Assembly (NCBI GenBank): GCA_016219455.1
Contig: JACRMZ010000062.1
Span: 1 to 9,522 of the forward strand
Reading direction: 5' to 3'
DNA from: Candidatus Aenigmatarchaeota archaeon
GTDB lineage: Archaea > Aenigmatarchaeota > Aenigmatarchaeia > PWEA01 > JACRMZ01
Length of the DNA stretch: 9,522 nt
Shown piece after piece: positions 1,827-8,540 of the stretch. Each line of letters begins with the position of its first letter. Within the stretch, counting starts at the first letter, position 1. The notes beneath the pieces were generated by a model. It was not told where the DNA came from, did not search any database, and saw only the letters and a program-made list of their open reading frames with translations. A program made the translations under genes and the position numbers.

Positions 1827-2159
1827 TCAACAACTCCCATTTGAGATCTTCTGCATAAAACCCCGTATTTCATTTCCATAAAAAGAAATGAGATGCCCTT
1901 CTTTGGAAATTTTTAGTGAATATTCGACTTCGCCTTTGAGTTTATTTTCTTCCTCTGAGACACTTATTTCATATTCTTCGCAATTTAGAGAAATTTTGGA
2001 AAGGTATGCATTGCGACCGCTTTTCTGTTTCAGCGTCCGGGAGAGTTTCCTGCTTCCAAGAAGATCAAACGCTTCTTGAAGAGAGGATGGAATTGGAATA
2101 TCTTCTACCATGCTATCAAAGTGCTCCTTAGCTATTCTGAGCAGGTTCTTGTTAATCAT
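1827..2159 (-). CDS. Small tagged island protein without leucine-rich repeats
   Basis: This 110-residue protein is not recognised as a known family. It opens with MINKNLLRIAKEHFD, the degenerate fourth copy of the N-terminal module shared by the four tandem genes. A charged linker follows, then a strand-rich part ending in SLKIS, LISFYG and MQKIS (about residues 80-107). That end resembles two things: the hairpin just before the repeats in the neighbouring LRR proteins (VKGGRVVSYNIS), and the C-terminal half of the 4118-4462 product (SVIS, IASWYG, YRLIS). I infer it is an LRR-less relative of the neighbours. ATG 2159 overlaps the upstream stop as ATGA, which implies translational coupling; a GTG at 2168 is possible but breaks the shared module. 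The gene is the last in the operon and ends 9 bases from the convergent YchF stop, with only A/T-rich sequence between. It appears AT-richer than the mevalonate genes. Confidence 0.8.
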   Translation of the reverse strand: MINKNLLRIAKEHFDSMVEDIPIPSSLQEAFDLLGSRKLSRTLKQKSGRNAYLSKISLNCEEYEISVSEEENKLKGEVEYSLKISKEGHLISFYGNEIRGFMQKISNGSC

Positions 2160-2659
2160 AAAGTCCACACGACTCTATTTCCGAACGCGTTATTTATCCG
2201 CTCTTCTTCGGATGAATCAAGTTTTTCCTTATCCAAATAAAATGAACGAATATTCCGGAGGTTTTCTACAGAGGAAGGTATGGACTTGATGTCATTTCCG
2301 TGCAAATAAAGATATCTTAAATCATGAAGATTTCCAATTGATTTGGGTATGGAGGACAGGTCATTCCCTGCCAGAGAAAGATATCTGAGGTTTGAAAGGT
2401 CACCTATTACATCTGGGATTTTTTCCAGCCCTTTGCCGGATATATTGTAAGACACCACTCTGCCGCCCTTTACTTTAATTTTGTGCCGTTCGTATTCATT
2501 TTCCGGCGTGCTTCCGTAGAGGGAGGAAATTTCCACAAGCGCTTCGTACTCCAACGCGCTTATTTCATAATCGCCAAGTGTAAACGTACTTTGCTTTTCC
2601 TTGGCTTTTATTCCATGATCAGCATGCTCTTTAGCAAGATTGGCGAGGTTCTTGTTCAT
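2156..2659 (-). CDS. Short leucine-rich repeat protein of the tagged island
   Basis: This 167-residue cytoplasmic protein starts with the shared module (MNKNLANLAKEHAD). A predicted helix follows at about 31-50 (YEISALEYEALVEISSLYG), then a hairpin VKGGRVVSYNIS at 63-74, and about three leucine-rich repeats of 23 residues (88-147). The repeat pattern is LxxLxLxGNDLxSIPxSIGNL, the plain type found in many prokaryotic and eukaryotic LRR proteins. It ends in a cap (SSEEERINNAFG, 149-160) like that of the larger neighbour. Every block before and after the repeats aligns with the 2874-4070 product, so the two are paralogues that differ mainly in repeat number. LRR folds bind proteins; the partner is unknown. 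There is no signal peptide. The start overlaps the upstream stop as ATGA and the stop overlaps the next start in the same way, so the gene lies inside a coupled operon. Confidence 0.9.
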   Translation of the reverse strand: MNKNLANLAKEHADHGIKAKEKQSTFTLGDYEISALEYEALVEISSLYGSTPENEYERHKIKVKGGRVVSYNISGKGLEKIPDVIGDLSNLRYLSLAGNDLSSIPKSIGNLHDLRYLYLHGNDIKSIPSSVENLRNIRSFYLDKEKLDSSEEERINNAFGNRVVWTL

Positions 2660-2868
2660 TTGACCCCTCTTTTCTTCCCAATGCGGGAGAAGTATGCGTT
2701 TTCGAGGTTCTCAAGGTCAAGACCAAGCTTCCTTCTTATGGCTTCAAGCTTTGCAGATGCCGTGTAATTATCAGGTTCTTGCTCCTTGGAAGGTCTGTAT
2801 TTGATTTCCCTGCAAGTGACTTCGTGGTCGCTGTGCTCCTTCGCGAGTTTGACGAGATTTTTGTTCAT
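2656..2868 (-). CDS. Very short tagged protein (70 residues)
   Basis: The product begins MNKNLVKLAKEHSD, identical in its first 14 residues to the large LRR protein upstream. It then has a charged segment and a helix at about 39-57 (YTASAKLEAIRRKLGLD). That helix sits where the LRR paralogues have YEISALEYEALVEISSLY, so this may be a reduced version that keeps only the tag and the pre-repeat helix. The final residues (SRIGKKRGVK) are basic. No known domain is seen. I place the start at 2868 by homology. An in-frame ATG at 2874, two codons earlier, overlaps the upstream stop as TGATG and could be the actual start by coupling. The stop overlaps the next gene's ATG. It could be a truncated remnant, but the open frame and coupled spacing favour a translated gene. 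Confidence 0.75.
   Translation of the reverse strand: MNKNLVKLAKEHSDHEVTCREIKYRPSKEQEPDNYTASAKLEAIRRKLGLDLENLENAYFSRIGKKRGVK
2833..2868 (-). repeat. Direct repeat copy 2: 5' end of the 70-residue gene
   Basis: These 36 bases are the first 12 codons of the gene. They match 4035-4070 at 34 of 36 positions, and both differences are synonymous third-base changes. More diverged copies form the starts of the genes at 2659 and 2159. Confidence 0.9.
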
Positions 2869-2873
2869 AAGCA

Positions 2874-4070
2874 TCAGTACATGTCGGGGCCGCTGAAATC
2901 AATCCACGCATCCTCCCCAAGGGCCTCTTTTAGCCTCATTCTCTCATCCGCGCCCTCGTTATTAGAGTAAAGAGACACGTACTTCGCTGCAAGCCCTTGG
3001 AAGGGCTCGGAGAAGTTGCGTATGATATTATTGTTGAAATAAAGATGCTCTATTGAAAGGCCGCAAAGCGGTGGCAGTTTATCTATCTTATTTTCAGATG
3101 CATCAAGTCTTTGCAGACCTTTAAGATTCGTTATGCTGCGCGGAAGGGTCTTTAGTTCGTTCTGCGAGACATCGAGGTTTTCTAGTGACCTTAGATTTCC
3201 TATCTCCTCCGGCACTTCAGACAGCTTGTTTTGGCAGAGTGAAAGCCGTTTGAGGGATGATATTCCCCGTATTCCATCGATGTTTTTCATACCGCAGTTT
3301 CTCATTGACAATTCCTCCAAAAAACTTGTTTCACCTAGAGGTTCTGGAAGATGGTCAAAGTTGTTTCCTGATATATCGATGGTCTTCAGGGACCCCATGT
3401 CTTTTAGTGACTTGGGAAGCGATGAAATCCCAGAATAGCCCACGTCAAGATACTCCAGTTTTTGGAGTTTTTCTATGCCATCAAGTGTCCCGGGTTTCGT
3501 GAGGTTTGCAACCAGCTTTTTCAGCGTCTTTGCCTTGTAAACGCCATCGAAGGATTTTATGGGGTTCATCGAAATGTCCAATGAATCTAGTTGGGTGCTT
3601 CCTATTCCGGCTACGTTTTCAATCTTATTTCCCCTTGCGTTGATTGACTTTAGATTCACCAACGAAGAAAGCGGCTCTATGGATGATATCTCGTTGAAGC
3701 TGATGTCAATTGACTCCAGGAACTCTAGGTCCTTTATTACATCTGGTATGTTGTCCAGCTTCCTACTTTTTCCATAATCCGGCCGCACATTATAATGAAT
3801 TACATGCGCGCCCCTGACGGCAACGTAAAATATGTAATCTTCATCAACGCCTGGTATAAACAAATCCTTCGACGTCCTGGGCTCTGCATCATCTATCCTA
3901 AGCGATTCTATCTTGACTAACGCATTGTATTCATTGCGGGGTATCAGGTATTCCCTTTTCCCGGCGGGTTCCCATACCATTATTGCGACATATCCGTCCT
4001 CTTCCTGACCCTTTTCCACAACGGAAGTATCCGAGTGCTCTTTCGCGAGTTTGACGAGGTTTTTGTTCAT
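2874..4070 (-). CDS. Leucine-rich repeat protein, large member of the tagged island
   Basis: This 398-residue protein has, in order, the shared N-terminal module MNKNLVKLAKEHSD, a variable acidic stretch, and a pre-repeat helix (about 41-60, containing EYNALVKIESL). A strand pair follows at about 78-95 (YIFYVAVRG, HVIHYNV), then roughly 11 leucine-rich repeats from about 105 to 370. The repeat pattern is LxxLxxLDISxNxLxxLP, with one degenerate unit near 183-204. The C-terminal cap (DERMRLKEALGEDAWIDF) resembles the end of the 167-residue paralogue. There is no signal peptide, transmembrane segment or catalytic domain, so a cytoplasmic protein-binding scaffold is the best inference. I chose ATG 4070 because it aligns with the module in three other genes; GTG codons at 4100 and 4097 would add ten or nine unconserved residues. 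It follows the 4118-4462 gene after 47 bases and shares TGATG with the next gene. Confidence 0.93.
   Translation of the reverse strand: MNKNLVKLAKEHSDTSVVEKGQEEDGYVAIMVWEPAGKREYLIPRNEYNALVKIESLRIDDAEPRTSKDLFIPGVDEDYIFYVAVRGAHVIHYNVRPDYGKSRKLDNIPDVIKDLEFLESIDISFNEISSIEPLSSLVNLKSINARGNKIENVAGIGSTQLDSLDISMNPIKSFDGVYKAKTLKKLVANLTKPGTLDGIEKLQKLEYLDVGYSGISSLPKSLKDMGSLKTIDISGNNFDHLPEPLGETSFLEELSMRNCGMKNIDGIRGISSLKRLSLCQNKLSEVPEEIGNLRSLENLDVSQNELKTLPRSITNLKGLQRLDASENKIDKLPPLCGLSIEHLYFNNNIIRNFSEPFQGLAAKYVSLYSNNEGADERMRLKEALGEDAWIDFSGPDMY
4035..4070 (-). repeat. Direct repeat copy 1: 5' end of the large LRR gene
   Basis: This is the first 12 codons of the gene and the near-identical partner of 2833-2868. 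Similarity between the two genes falls off quickly after codon 14. The pattern suggests a recent duplication or gene conversion confined to the start of the coding sequence. Confidence 0.9.
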
Positions 4071-4117
4071 AATATTCCATGCGTTGCAAGTTTCCACCAC
4101 CGCTTGTAAAAGTCCAT

Positions 4118-4946: not shown

Positions 4947-5468
4947 TCACCTGTTTTCCTCCTGAAGGATTTCCAGCGCCTTTGAGAGGTATTCCTTGAC
5001 TTTCTCTTTTGTGGAAGCTGCCGTTATTGATAATTTCCCCTTCCCCCTGAAGATGGGCTTTGCGTGGGATATGGAGAACATCTGATTTACATCCTTAGCA
5101 ACTTCATTGTTGTACATTTTGAACTTTGATTCTATTTTTCCCCCATGGATAAAGTACTGCTTATAGTCAAGGGACTCCCTTCCGAACGCTGCTATTTTCA
5201 TGATTGCTTCGGTGGTTTTTCCGATGTCCATCTCCTTCATCCCCAGCTCTTTGAAATGGCGGTTTATCCCCTTGTCTGCTTTCTTGGCGTATTCTACTGG
5301 CGTGTCGTTCATACCTAAAATGACGACAAAATAATCCCCCCCGCCCATGTACATCATATCAAGCTTTCCGCTAGACCCGACTTTTCTTGGAATTATTTTG
5401 AAGTTTTCGCCAACCTTGCCTTCAAACTTCTCCCAAAGCTCTTCAAAGTCGGCCATATAATCTTCCAT
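4947..5468 (-). CDS. Unknown protein, first gene of the island operon
   Basis: This 173-residue protein is not recognised. It starts with an acidic helix (MADFEELWEKFEGK). A sheet-like half follows (NFKIIPRKVGSSGK, MMYMGGGDYFVVILGM), then a helical middle (about 58-95), a second strand set around 104-118 (YFIHGGKIESKFKMY), and a C-terminal helix (EKVKEYLSKALEILQEE). The segment FKIIPRKVGSSG with the later GGGDYFVVIL resembles FEINYKTFGSSG and YGDEQIGSL in the small 6824-7078 protein of the divergent operon. That similarity is weak and may be chance. There is no signal peptide. It leads the seven-gene minus-strand operon, with a strong ribosome site and a TATA element upstream. Confidence 0.85.
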   Translation of the reverse strand: MEDYMADFEELWEKFEGKVGENFKIIPRKVGSSGKLDMMYMGGGDYFVVILGMNDTPVEYAKKADKGINRHFKELGMKEMDIGKTTEAIMKIAAFGRESLDYKQYFIHGGKIESKFKMYNNEVAKDVNQMFSISHAKPIFRGKGKLSITAASTKEKVKEYLSKALEILQEENR

Positions 5469-5591: not shown

Positions 5592-6827
5592 ATGAACTCG
5601 AAAGTTGCGATAATCTCAGGTGCAACAACCAAGTTCTCCGAGAGATGGGAAGACTCGTGGATGGACCTTATCAGGGAGTGTGGCCTTGAGGCACTCAAGA
5701 AGGCTGGCATAGAGAGGAAGCAGATAAGCAAGATTTACTGTGGCAACATGGGGTTGGAAGGCCTCGCAGGGCAGAGCCAGCTGGTTTCAAAGCTTTACGA
5801 AGAGTTGTTCGACAATGGTTCCCATACACCCATGACGCGCGTCGAATCAGGCGAAGCCTCCGGAGCAAAGGCAATCGAGGAGGCATGTGGGCACATCTTC
5901 GCTGGGTTGCATCACGGGCAGGAACGAGTCGTCGTAGTCGGTGGTGTCGAAAAGATGAAGGACGTCAAGTCCGCGCTCGCCACGAAAGTCCTGGACTCGA
6001 CTGCAGACAGGGAGCGCGAGATGATATTAGGCAAAGGATTGTACTCACTCTACGGCGAAATAGCCGGGCGTTATCTCAGGGCAAATGGCGTTTCAGCCGA
6101 CTTCATGCATCTTGTCGCGGTGAAAAACCACAAGAACGCTGAAGCCAATGAGAAGGCACACTTCCCGTTTGCGGTAAACCTGCAGCAGGTCCGCGAGAGC
6201 CAGATAATGTCTACACCGCTGAGGATGCTGGATTGCCACGCCATGTCTGACGGCGCGTCCGCTCTCGTGCTTGTTCCGGAATCGCTTGCGAAGAAGATTG
6301 GCAAAGAGTATGTCGTCATAGATTCCATGCATTCTGCAACAGACACAATGTCGCTTTACAGCAGGCATGATTTCACAGCGTTCAACGCCGTCTCAACCGC
6401 CGCGAAATGGGCCTTCGGAGAAGCTAATGTCTCGCCTAAAGACATAGACGTAGCGGAGCTGCATGATTCGTTCACGATAACAGAGCTTTTGGCTTACGAG
6501 GACTTGGGCTTTGCCCCGAGGGGAAAGGGTTCCGAGCTGATAAAAAACAACATGATGAACGGAAAGGATGCCCTCGAGCCGAGCCAGTTGAAAACGCCTG
6601 TTGTCCTTGCAGACGGAAACAGCGAGTTCGTTTTCAATCCAACAGGAGGCCTGAAGGCACGCGGCCACGCTATTGGTGCCACAGGCGTGGCTCAAGCCGT
6701 TGAAATATACGAGCAGCTTCTGGGCAAATCCGGGAAAAGGCAGGCTCAGAAGGCCGAAGTCGGGCTGACGCATAGCGTTGGCGGTATCGGCGGGACGGCT
6801 GTTGTTGGAATATACAGGGCGGGATGA
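5592..6827 (+). CDS. SCP2-type thiolase homologue lacking the catalytic cysteine
   Basis: The 411-residue product aligns along its whole length with archaeal acetyl-CoA C-acetyltransferases. Those condense two acetyl-CoA to acetoacetyl-CoA at the entry to the mevalonate pathway and form a complex with HMG-CoA synthase. Family landmarks are VEKM (119-122), LLDC-type MLDCHAMSDGASAL (212-225), ELHD (289-292), GGLKARGHAIGATG (352-365) and LTHSVGG (392-398). The active site is altered. Where the family has V-E-A-A-C-A-S-G, this protein has V-E-S-G-E-A-S-G, putting Glu88 (GAA, 5853-5855) in the nucleophile position. The HDCF motif is HDSF (291-294), and GHP is GHA (His359 kept). The nearest Cys, C98, is ten residues downstream and should not reach the site. 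Start: leaderless ATG under a good TATA box. It overlaps the next gene as ATGA. Function may be decarboxylating or purely structural within the complex; that part is inference. Confidence 0.93.
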   Translation: MNSKVAIISGATTKFSERWEDSWMDLIRECGLEALKKAGIERKQISKIYCGNMGLEGLAGQSQLVSKLYEELFDNGSHTPMTRVESGEASGAKAIEEACGHIFAGLHHGQERVVVVGGVEKMKDVKSALATKVLDSTADREREMILGKGLYSLYGEIAGRYLRANGVSADFMHLVAVKNHKNAEANEKAHFPFAVNLQQVRESQIMSTPLRMLDCHAMSDGASALVLVPESLAKKIGKEYVVIDSMHSATDTMSLYSRHDFTAFNAVSTAAKWAFGEANVSPKDIDVAELHDSFTITELLAYEDLGFAPRGKGSELIKNNMMNGKDALEPSQLKTPVVLADGNSEFVFNPTGGLKARGHAIGATGVAQAVEIYEQLLGKSGKRQAQKAEVGLTHSVGGIGGTAVVGIYRAG

Positions 6828-7078
6828 TTATGAAAAATACTGTGAAAAAAATTCGGGGAATAATAGAGAGCGAGTTCGGGGATGGCTTTGAAATCAATTA
6901 CAAAACGTTTGGTAGTTCCGGTGGCAAAGAGGAGCACGCTTACATAAGCTACGGGGACGAGCAGATCGGTTCGCTTCAGTATTTCCCCAAATGCCACGTT
7001 TCCTGCGGTCCGGAATATTTAGAGAACTTCATGCGGCTCAGGGAGCACGTTGCAAAGGCACTTGAGGAGGATCTTTGA
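6824..7078 (+). CDS. Small unknown protein inside the mevalonate operon
   Basis: This 84-residue protein (82 if ATG 6830 is used) is not recognised. It begins with a helix (KNTVKKIRGIIESEFG), followed by strands (FEINYKTFGSSGG, HAYISYGDEQIGSLQYF). A Cys pair sits in KCHVSCGPEY, and a C-terminal helix (FMRLREHVAKALEED) ends the protein. Its start overlaps the thiolase stop (ATGA), and its stop overlaps the DUF35-HMG-CoA synthase start (TGATG), so all three genes should be translated together. It sits between two enzymes that are normally adjacent, so it may be a partner or a regulator. It also resembles, weakly, part of the first island gene across the divergent promoter. It is too short and lacks the motifs for a thiolase or DUF35 fragment. 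Confidence 0.8.
   Translation: MIMKNTVKKIRGIIESEFGDGFEINYKTFGSSGGKEEHAYISYGDEQIGSLQYFPKCHVSCGPEYLENFMRLREHVAKALEEDL
7064..7070 (+). promoter_or_regulatory. Shine-Dalgarno site for DUF35-HMG-CoA synthase
   Basis: GAGGAGG lies 7 bases before ATG 7078, inside the end of the small upstream gene. It supports ATG 7078 over the TTG at 7075. Confidence 0.65.
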
Positions 7079-8540
7079 TGGAGCCTACGTCTTCGCGTTA
7101 TTGGCGAAGCAGCAAAGACTTACATCTTATTGGAAGGCAGTGCAGCTGTGGCCACCGGTACTACAAGTCAACGAACTTCTGCACATCATGCGGAAGGATG
7201 GGAAACGTTACTGAGTACGCTCTTCCAAGAACAGGAAAAGTTTTCTCTTCTACTGTTACATACTCGGCAACCGAGGACCTTCAGCTTTCACTCAAAGTCC
7301 CCTACACTTTGGCTACTGTGGAGCTTGGCGGGGTAAAAGTCCCGGGCATAGTCGATGGAGGCGCGGAAATAAACGATGATGTCGGCTGCAAAGTCGGTTT
7401 GCTTGGCAGGACATCCGAAGGATTGGCAATCTACAGGCTCGTTTGGGAAAAGCTCCTCAGGTACGCCATGCCAAAAACTGCAGCGAAAGACTCCAACAGG
7501 CAATCCAAAGACCCAAAGAACGTCGGGATTGAAGGCTATGGTGTTTACGCTCCACGTTTTCGGATTTCCACAAAAGAAATAGCGCGCGTCTGGGGAGCGC
7601 AGGACGAGGGAGGGCAGAAAAGCCTGCCGGGAAAGTGGGATGACTCCGGTTCTTATGCTATGAATTCGGCACTCGACGCGCTTCATCATGCAGGCGTGCC
7701 GGGAAAAGAAATCGGCGATGTGATGGTCGGCTCAGAAAGCCATCCATACGCAGTAAACCCGACATCAACAATTGTTGGCGAGCTAATCGGCTCTGACGAG
7801 GCCGCATCGGACTTGGAGTTCGCGTGCAAGGCCGGGACGCATGCGATGCGAGTTCTCGCTGCAGAAGTGATGGCAAACACAATAAAATACGGTTTGGCAA
7901 TAGGCACAGATTCGGCGCAGGGAGCTCCATCTGATGCGTTGGAATATACGGCAGGCGACGGCGCTGCCGCATTTGTTCTTGGCAACAACAAGCCGATTGC
8001 AATCCTTGAAGGAAGGCCGCGCTCGTTCTGCACAGACACGCCGGACTTCTGGAGGAATGAAGGGGAGAAGTATCCGAGGCATGGCGAACGTTTCACAGGG
8101 GAGCCTGCTTATTTCAGGCAAAGAGGCTCATGACTGAACTTGGGCTTGAGGCAAAAGATTTTGATTATGCTGTTTTCCACCAGCCAAATTCCAAATTCCC
8201 AAGGCGTGCCGGAAAGATACTGGGGTTCAAGCCAGAGCAGGTTGAGCGCGGCATCGTCACTGATTCCATAGGGAACTCGTATTCGGCGTGTTCGATGATT
8301 GGGCTGTGCAGGGTTCTCGATGTCGCAGGCCCTGGCGAGAGGATACTTTTGACATCGTATGGTTCCGGCGCAGGAAGCGATGCGTTCTCATTCATAACAA
8401 CAAAGCACATAATAGAGAAGCGCGAGAGGATACGCAGGAGCGTGGACAGCTGGCTTGGCATCGAGGACAAGAACCTCGTTGAATTCGTCGATTACGCCAT
8501 TTATGCGAAACAGAAGGGCGTAATAAGGATGCACGAATAA
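7078..8540 (+). pseudogene. mvaS: DUF35 (zinc ribbon/OB-fold) fused to HMG-CoA synthase, frameshifted
   Basis: HMG-CoA synthase joins acetyl-CoA to acetoacetyl-CoA to give HMG-CoA. Residues 1-130 are a DUF35 domain: a zinc ribbon (C22, C24, C35, C38) then an OB-fold. A linker (131-147) leads to the synthase, beginning NVGIEGYGVYAPRFR. Catalytic Glu220 (GSESHP) and Cys250 (LEFACKAGT) are present. The first frame reads on through GEPAYFR and hits TGA at 8131-8133. The rest continues in another frame from about 8118 and holds the catalytic His (FHQPN, codon 8178-8180) and the GSGAGSDAF end, closing with TAA. From memory, archaeal homologues have about five residues (like HVINA) between YFR and AK-x-LM. 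Their loss plus one base, 16 bases in all, explains the shift. GGCA at the junction (8117-8120) fits deletion between short repeats. DUF35 is normally a separate protein bridging thiolase and synthase. The 3' fragment has an ATG at 8130 but no ribosome site of note. A sequencing or assembly error is the main alternative. Confidence 0.92.

Follow-up and report, generated by a model that had tools for sequence, protein, structure and literature searches.

A thiolase encoded beside HMG-CoA synthase is the natural candidate source of acetoacetyl-CoA for archaeal lipid synthesis, and the locus described here raises the question of what role such a protein can have when glutamate occupies the position of its nucleophilic cysteine. 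The window, by which we mean the whole stretch of 9,522 nucleotides that was analysed, is the entire contig C10 of a Candidatus Aenigmatarchaeota genome of 866 kb that is 65% complete; the features under discussion are collected in Table 1.

Table 1. Features of the thiolase locus, in window coordinates
Feature	Position	Strand	Basis or remark
Thiolase homologue, nucleophile Cys replaced by Glu88	5592..6827	+	ATG start, 411 aa, open frame
Nucleophile-position codon 88, GAA (Glu)	5853..5855	+	Aligned with the Cys of 6ESQ; Glu likewise in P0001
His291-Asp292-Ser293, HDS versus HDC in most Cys relatives	6462..6470	+	Codons and alignment
His359-Ala360, GHA versus GHP in most relatives	6666..6671	+	Codons and alignment; 6ESQ also has GHA
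84-aa ORF, no assigned function	6824..7078	+	No Pfam match at E 0.1
DUF35-like part (Zn-ribbon-like and OB fold) fused to N-terminal part of HMG-CoA synthase	7078..8133	+	Pfam
C-terminal part of HMG-CoA synthase, in another frame, with the His of FHQPN	8118..8540	+	ORF listed from 8130

An earlier note on this DNA had placed a Glu at the nucleophile position, three base changes away from Cys, and both statements are borne out. Codons 84 to 91 of the thiolase homologue (GTC GAA TCA GGC GAA GCC TCC GGA) encode VESGEASG, and when the protein is aligned with 6ESQ, the Methanothermococcus enzyme of known structure, as the note had proposed, the Cys of VEAACASG falls on Glu88, with no Cys at that position in the window protein; three substitutions separate GAA from either Cys codon. 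The note had further listed the replacement of the HDCF Cys by Ser293 (TCG) and of the GHP Pro by Ala360 (GCT). These changes are present, Ser being found at the HDCF position in 17 of the 218 Cys-bearing rows and Ala360 in 1 of them, but Ala360 was rejected as a mark of inactivation, since 6ESQ carries GHA while retaining its Cys. As judged from sequence, the diagnostic change in the window protein is Glu88. E85, H291 and D292 are present in 120 of the 120 listed matches and H359 in 107 of them, and the window protein has both active-site His within 411 codons free of stops, in agreement with the open frame and conserved His359 that the note had described. P0001, the nearest among the matches listed and a cluster of five member sequences, is identical to the window protein at 388 of 411 positions (94%) and reads VESGEASG, HDSF and GHA as well; 20 of the 23 differing sites have BLOSUM62 scores of at least 0.

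The surroundings of the gene point to an operon. Overlaps of at most 4 bases link the thiolase gene, the 84-aa ORF and the DUF35-HMG-CoA synthase gene, the small ORF sharing 4 bases with the end of the thiolase gene and overlapping the start of the fused gene, for which a TTG at 7075 is a possible alternative start. The OB-fold and Zn-ribbon matches of the DUF35-like part score under the curated Pfam cut-offs, and the codon of the HMG-CoA synthase catalytic Cys lies at 7825-7827. The thiolase gene thus adjoins HMG-CoA synthase and DUF35, as expected of a member of their complex, despite a frame break in the synthase near 8117. Sequence comparison suggests that this break is local to this genome or a fault of the assembly, because the 94% identical homologue P0121 is one unbroken protein of 492 aa. 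In three genomes of the same order (G004, G007 and G009; order-mates hereafter), the fused DUF35-HMG-CoA synthase directly follows the thiolase and the 84-aa ORF is missing between them; this ORF gave a marginal match only, to the ORF at 4947-5468. Candidatus Aenigmatarchaeota is the source of several named proteins of the fused DUF35-HMG-CoA synthase type and of the order-mate thiolase type.

The AlphaFold model of the window thiolase (mean pLDDT 93.4, pTM 0.94) confidently predicts a thiolase fold, nearest to that of 6esq/6et9, whose thiolase chain is the best match by sequence, Foldseek and VIA-align alike. These structures contain the acetoacetyl-CoA thiolase of Methanothermococcus thermolithotrophicus, which has a Cys nucleophile and HDCF where the window protein has Glu88 and Ser; another difference is the fusion of DUF35 with HMG-CoA synthase that the window encodes. 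According to PMC12329534, a common CoA site lies at the interface between thiolase and HMG-CoA synthase of the complex, with DUF35 keeping the two together. Of the features of a catalytic archaeal acetoacetyl-CoA thiolase, the window protein accordingly has the fold, His291 and His359, and it has neither the Cys of the C-x-S nucleophile motif nor that of HDCF. We infer that the covalent acyl-enzyme step has been lost and that, therefore, the protein would carry out neither condensation nor thiolysis by the thiolase mechanism.

Thiolase-like proteins that have dispensed with the nucleophile are not without parallel. Ketosynthases of the KSQ type, in which Cys is changed to Gln, are decarboxylating, and TbSLP, Ltp2 and Sal are also without a nucleophile; the window protein differs from the KSQ type in having Glu at this position. 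The thiolase fold is common to the window protein and the SCP2-thiolase-group proteins MsTLP1, ST0096 (4yzo), TbSLP (5ab4-5ab7), Ltp2 and Sal, and among these the lack of the nucleophile is already known for MsTLP1, which has Gly at the site according to PMC3406046, and is indicated for 4yzo by the Ser that aligns there. Ltp2 and Sal function together with DUF35 and carry the motif YDHF/YDCY (PMC12329534), whereas the window protein has HDSF at 291-294 and hence lacks the catalytic Tyr of that type.

Replacement of the Cys extends well beyond this locus. In protein searches in which about 8000 candidates were scored, the nucleophile site among the best 120 matches listed was Cys in 82, Asp in 23, Gly in 10, Ser in 4 and Glu in 1, the last being P0001, so that the same Glu site, which the earlier note had suggested looking for in related genomes, is indeed found. 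Four proteins with Ser at the position (P0010, P0011, P0022 and P0069) have a GHPHG or GNPHG motif. Eighty named loci were collected by means of an alignment that combined Asp types with P0001 and the window protein, which biases the sample towards these types. Cys stands at the site in 59 of the loci, Asp in 12 and Gly in 9; 78 carry archaeal titles and two (L082 and L098) bacterial ones. HMG-CoA synthase was detected at 77 of the 80, including all 21 Cys-less loci, and DUF35 at 19 of these 21; the catalytic Glu and Cys of the synthase could be read in 19 and its His in 20 of the 21, the remainder being cut by contig ends. Nine of the 12 Asp loci are from Archaeoglobi. Like the window protein, the Asp-type thiolases (Archaeoglobi and a few other loci) have an acidic residue for Cys, mostly HDS and GHA, retained His, and an HMG-CoA synthase and DUF35 adjoining; unlike it, they have Asp rather than Glu, stand apart in the trees, and have an unfused HMG-CoA synthase upstream.

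Close to the window protein, Cys prevails. In its own phylum, a thiolase match was obtained in 87 of 156 genomes, its own genome counted; the other genomes contribute 80 distinct sequences of 300 aa or longer, every one of them with Cys. A further search, for which four order-mates joined the window protein and P0001 as queries, yielded 88 new proteins, of which 87 have Cys and one Asp; the 15 nearest the order-mates (P0241-P0255, with Candidatus Aenigmatarchaeota named for three) all have Cys. These 15 and the four order-mate thiolases themselves (L004, L005, L007 and L008) combine Cys, HDCF and GHP without exception (15/15 and 4/4) and are 40-43% identical to the window protein; the four order-mates share with it insertions near 108-111 and 322-343.

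Trees were built on alignments from which the motif columns had been removed. In a 278-row FastTree, freed beforehand of rows shorter than 300 aa and near-contained duplicates, 10 residue changes were counted, 9 of them into or out of Cys and 7 forced by well-supported branches; a careful tree of 59 rows gave 7 changes (6 into or out of Cys, 4 forced), and in a tree of 79 rows from the named loci there were 5, all into or out of Cys and 2 forced. The total varies with the tree and some of the counted changes may be regains of Cys, but the nucleophile appears to have been lost more than once in archaea. The window protein and P0001 group with P0002 and with Cys-bearing f5 and f10 relatives from their own order and class (100/100 in the 59-row tree), and an AU test rejects a clade of the two with the Archaeoglobi-type Asp proteins P0005 and P0007 (p 0.0004). 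Kinship with the Asp clade, at which HDS and GHA had hinted, is thereby rejected by the motif-free tree, the AU test and the order-mate insertions. The stem of the window pair is long (1.36 changes per site in the 59-row tree), long branches may have been drawn together in the 278-row tree, and the exact sister is unsure, the window protein and order-mates having a support of 60/0 as a single clade. A path of single-base steps from Cys to Glu, from TGC by way of GGC and GAC to GAA, is plausible, because both intermediates, Gly and Asp, are seen in present-day sequences.

The loss of Cys was accompanied by other changes that differ with the residue taking its place. We defined as near-invariant the 69 columns that are each at least 95% conserved across the 218 Cys rows. 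The window protein keeps 60 of them (87%), its nine changes (G9S, H63Q, A87G, C88E, T149G, A155G, S216H, P360A and N395S) being identical in P0001; four order-mates keep 91%, and the means are 92.5% for Asp, 92% for Gly and 99% for Cys rows. Since the rows are related, the residue counts that follow are not independent. S216 is missing from both Glu rows, 31 of the 35 Asp rows and 16 of the 19 Gly rows; P360A is found in both Glu rows and 30 of the 35 Asp rows but in none of the 19 Gly rows; and His359 is kept in every Asp and Glu row but in only 3 of 19 Gly rows; His291 and Asp292 are likewise kept in all 35 Asp and both Glu rows. The alignments suggest that loss of Cys is of two kinds, one acidic with the His retained and one with Gly in which the His has mostly gone.

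Selection could be gauged in the Asp, Gly and Cys pairs covered by the dN/dS analysis, the Glu-type P0001 being represented by its protein sequence only. For Cys-less thiolases with measurable dS, dN/dS was 0.037 in one Asp pair and 0.067-0.101 in three Gly pairs, compared with 0.034-0.079 in six Cys pairs. In four of five Asp pairs dS was saturated, and dN (0.07-0.13) was slightly under that of their HMG-CoA synthases; the Gly pair L064-L076 was set aside, as its stop-to-stop frames are far longer than genes (dN/dS 0.51 for the thiolase and 0.44 for the synthase). The measured Asp and Gly thiolase genes are under purifying selection. In the window, identity to six reference loci is 0.38-0.44 for the thiolase and 0.49-0.55 for the HMG-CoA synthase, a gap that is smaller in most other pairs; against P0001 and P0121, 388 of 411 thiolase and 333 of 346 HMG-CoA synthase residues are identical. 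Our reading is that the window lineage underwent a burst of change on the stem and was constrained afterwards. The shared Glu88 of P0001, the operon overlap, the 60 columns kept and the purifying selection on Asp and Gly genes where measurable together lend support to two claims of the earlier note, namely that this is not fresh decay and that the protein has been kept, possibly as a structural partner of HMG-CoA synthase.

Classical thiolases, defined here as Thiolase_N matches at an E value of 1e-50 or better, are encoded elsewhere by 8 of the 12 Asp and 8 of the 9 Gly genomes, or 16 of the 21 that are Cys-less, but by 5 of the 59 with Cys (Fisher p 1e-8). With genomes limited to those of 1.6 Mb or more, the association has a p value of 0.003, and it was not significant in an independent-pairs test, which had 2 pairs on supported branches and 5 on all branches. 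An N(K/M)VC nucleophile loop was recognized at 15 of 17 classical-thiolase loci checked, or 15 of the 16 from Cys-less genomes, the two without a match being L232 (Cys-less genome) and L224 (Cys genome); the check took in one of the five Cys-genome loci, the other four being unread. Among the named Archaeoglobi of the sample, 7 of 9 Asp genomes and neither of two Cys genomes have a classical thiolase, and these two have several other thiolase-family genes. In G160, an Asp genome with no classical thiolase, a different thiolase is present that carries Cys, HDCF and GHP, and in 4 of the 21 Cys-less genomes no further thiolase was found in the assembly at E 1e-6.

In the window genome itself, no Cys thiolase was found at 65% completeness, an absence that means little because HMG-CoA reductase was also missed. 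Two other thiolase-like genes are present (L210 on C75 and L211 on C80), but as a source of acetoacetyl-CoA they are unsupported: the C75 protein has DDTF and GNA motifs and a Ser aligned at the nucleophile site (a weak alignment at 27% identity), and the C80 protein, with YDPF and GNP, is cut by the contig end before that site. By resemblance, these loci hold PRK06066-like and PRK06065-like thiolase-like genes and DUF35-like genes, together with an IPP-isomerase-like gene that scores under the family cut-off; the matches listed for the other 155 genomes of the phylum were all weaker, thiolase-like ones, and the two contigs may be mis-binned. The window genome also encodes an mmdA-like carboxyltransferase (L267, 3471-5006, on C89; a score of 795 bits against a curated cut-off of 999). 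An acyl-CoA carboxyltransferase was undetected in 10 of the 21 named Cys-less genomes, which are drafts, including the Asp types G158, G159, G161, G164 and G166. Decarboxylation, which the earlier note had put forward as a testable idea, is for this reason not supported as a common role, although it is possible in the window genome with its mmdA-like gene.

Our favoured explanation, held with moderate confidence, is that the window protein is a putative non-catalytic subunit that forms a CoA site in the complex of thiolase, DUF35 and HMG-CoA synthase, acetoacetyl-CoA being supplied from another source. Thiolase chemistry would become dispensable once acetoacetyl-CoA came from elsewhere, and the Cys-less thiolase, still forming part of the CoA site beside HMG-CoA synthase, would be kept for this shared site; that the subunit should outlast its chemistry is suggested because the CoA site is common to both enzymes (PMC12329534). 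In favour are the operon, the match to 6esq/6et9, the position of Cys-less loci beside a synthase whose catalytic residues are present wherever they could be read, the low dN/dS of Asp and Gly genes, the mostly conservative differences from P0001, the 60 near-invariant columns kept and the classical-thiolase association. Against it, no row of the acidic forms lacks His291, Asp292 or His359, a conservation that would seem to exceed the need of a purely structural role; the incomplete window genome yielded no Cys thiolase; the association comes down to few independent events, and the four Cys-less genomes mentioned above have no other thiolase.

That the acidic forms retain both His so strictly is what argues most strongly for an active site with a residual or new function, and it leads to an explanation that we regard as possible, although unlikely: that the Asp and Glu forms are enzymes with a new non-covalent chemistry, in which the carboxylate, together with His291 and His359, acts on a CoA ester by enolisation or decarboxylation (decarboxylation of malonyl- or methylmalonyl-CoA would be an example, as would a retro-aldol step), and the product is passed to HMG-CoA synthase. 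None of the 35 Asp and 2 Glu rows lacks either His, whereas 16 of 19 Gly rows have lost His359; P360A and loss of S216 accompany the acidic residue in lineages that the trees keep apart; the retro-aldolases Sal and Ltp2 and the very slow malonyl-CoA decarboxylation by TbSLP provide precedents (PMC12329534); and the mmdA-like carboxyltransferase is at hand in the window genome. On the other side, malonyl-CoA is unlikely to be the common substrate because of the 10 Cys-less genomes without a detected carboxyltransferase, Sal gave no malonyl-CoA decarboxylation (PMC12329534), GHA also occurs in the Cys protein 6ESQ, and the change at S216 is not tied to an acidic residue because the Gly rows have mostly lost it too. 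In a wider form, which we offer tentatively and consider rather unlikely, the thiolase of the archaeal HMG-CoA synthase complex would have been converted repeatedly to a carboxylate-and-histidine protein, with either a new non-covalent activity or the role of a CoA-ester gate feeding HMG-CoA synthase where isoprenoid synthesis begins; this would cover the Glu of the window lineage, the Asp of Archaeoglobi and of a small number of further lineages, and the convergent changes at 216, 293 and 360.

Simple decay is improbable to our minds. It would have another route to acetoacetyl-CoA arise, after which the thiolase loses its function and drifts along with its operon, and several observations that weigh against the subunit reading fit it: the long stem, the greater divergence of the thiolase than of its own HMG-CoA synthase, the smallest share of near-invariant columns kept by any group compared, and the frame break in the window synthase. 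Opposed to these are the 411 open codons, the conservative nature of 20 of the 23 differences from P0001, the 60 columns kept, the unbroken fusion in P0121 and the low dN/dS of the Asp and Gly analogues. That the protein is an ordinary acetoacetyl-CoA thiolase with a different nucleophile residue would fit the fold and both active-site His, but Cys is missing at both 88 and 293, Asn395 has become Ser, and Cys is the key nucleophile in all characterised members of the superfamily as stated in PMC3406046 (2012), which makes this very improbable. A sequencing or assembly error at codon 88 might be suspected in a draft contig whose adjoining HMG-CoA synthase has a frame break; it would require three wrong bases, and it is ruled out for practical purposes because P0001, a distinct protein and 94% identical, has the same Glu88, together with the same Ser and Ala, where a Cys in close relatives would have implied such an error.

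No report of Cys loss in thiolases adjoining archaeal HMG-CoA synthase was found in the open-licence literature, as represented by titles and the starts of abstracts, and mentions of AACT and thiolase were not found in the available part of PMC11052028. At 21 of the 80 named loci, in a sample biased towards Asp types, the thiolase is without the residue for the acetoacetyl-CoA reaction. If the protein is a structural subunit, those archaea would have a wrong assignment for the first enzyme of the isoprenoid pathway, and the complex would provide a naturally occurring example of an enzyme retained as a scaffold; if it has a new activity, this would be an unrecognised entry step into isoprenoid synthesis.

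Elsewhere in the window, a YGR210/YchF-like GTPase gene (663-1817) contains a single in-frame TAG at 1479-1481, for which read-through, Pyl and assembly error are all candidates; the order-mate thiolase L006 likewise contains one in-frame TAG. Three adjacent minus-strand ORFs (1827-4100) have in common, as seen by eye, an N-terminal motif resembling NKNL..(L/I)AKEH, and leucine-rich repeats are recognized by Pfam in 2874-4100 and by eye in 2156-2659, both on the minus strand.
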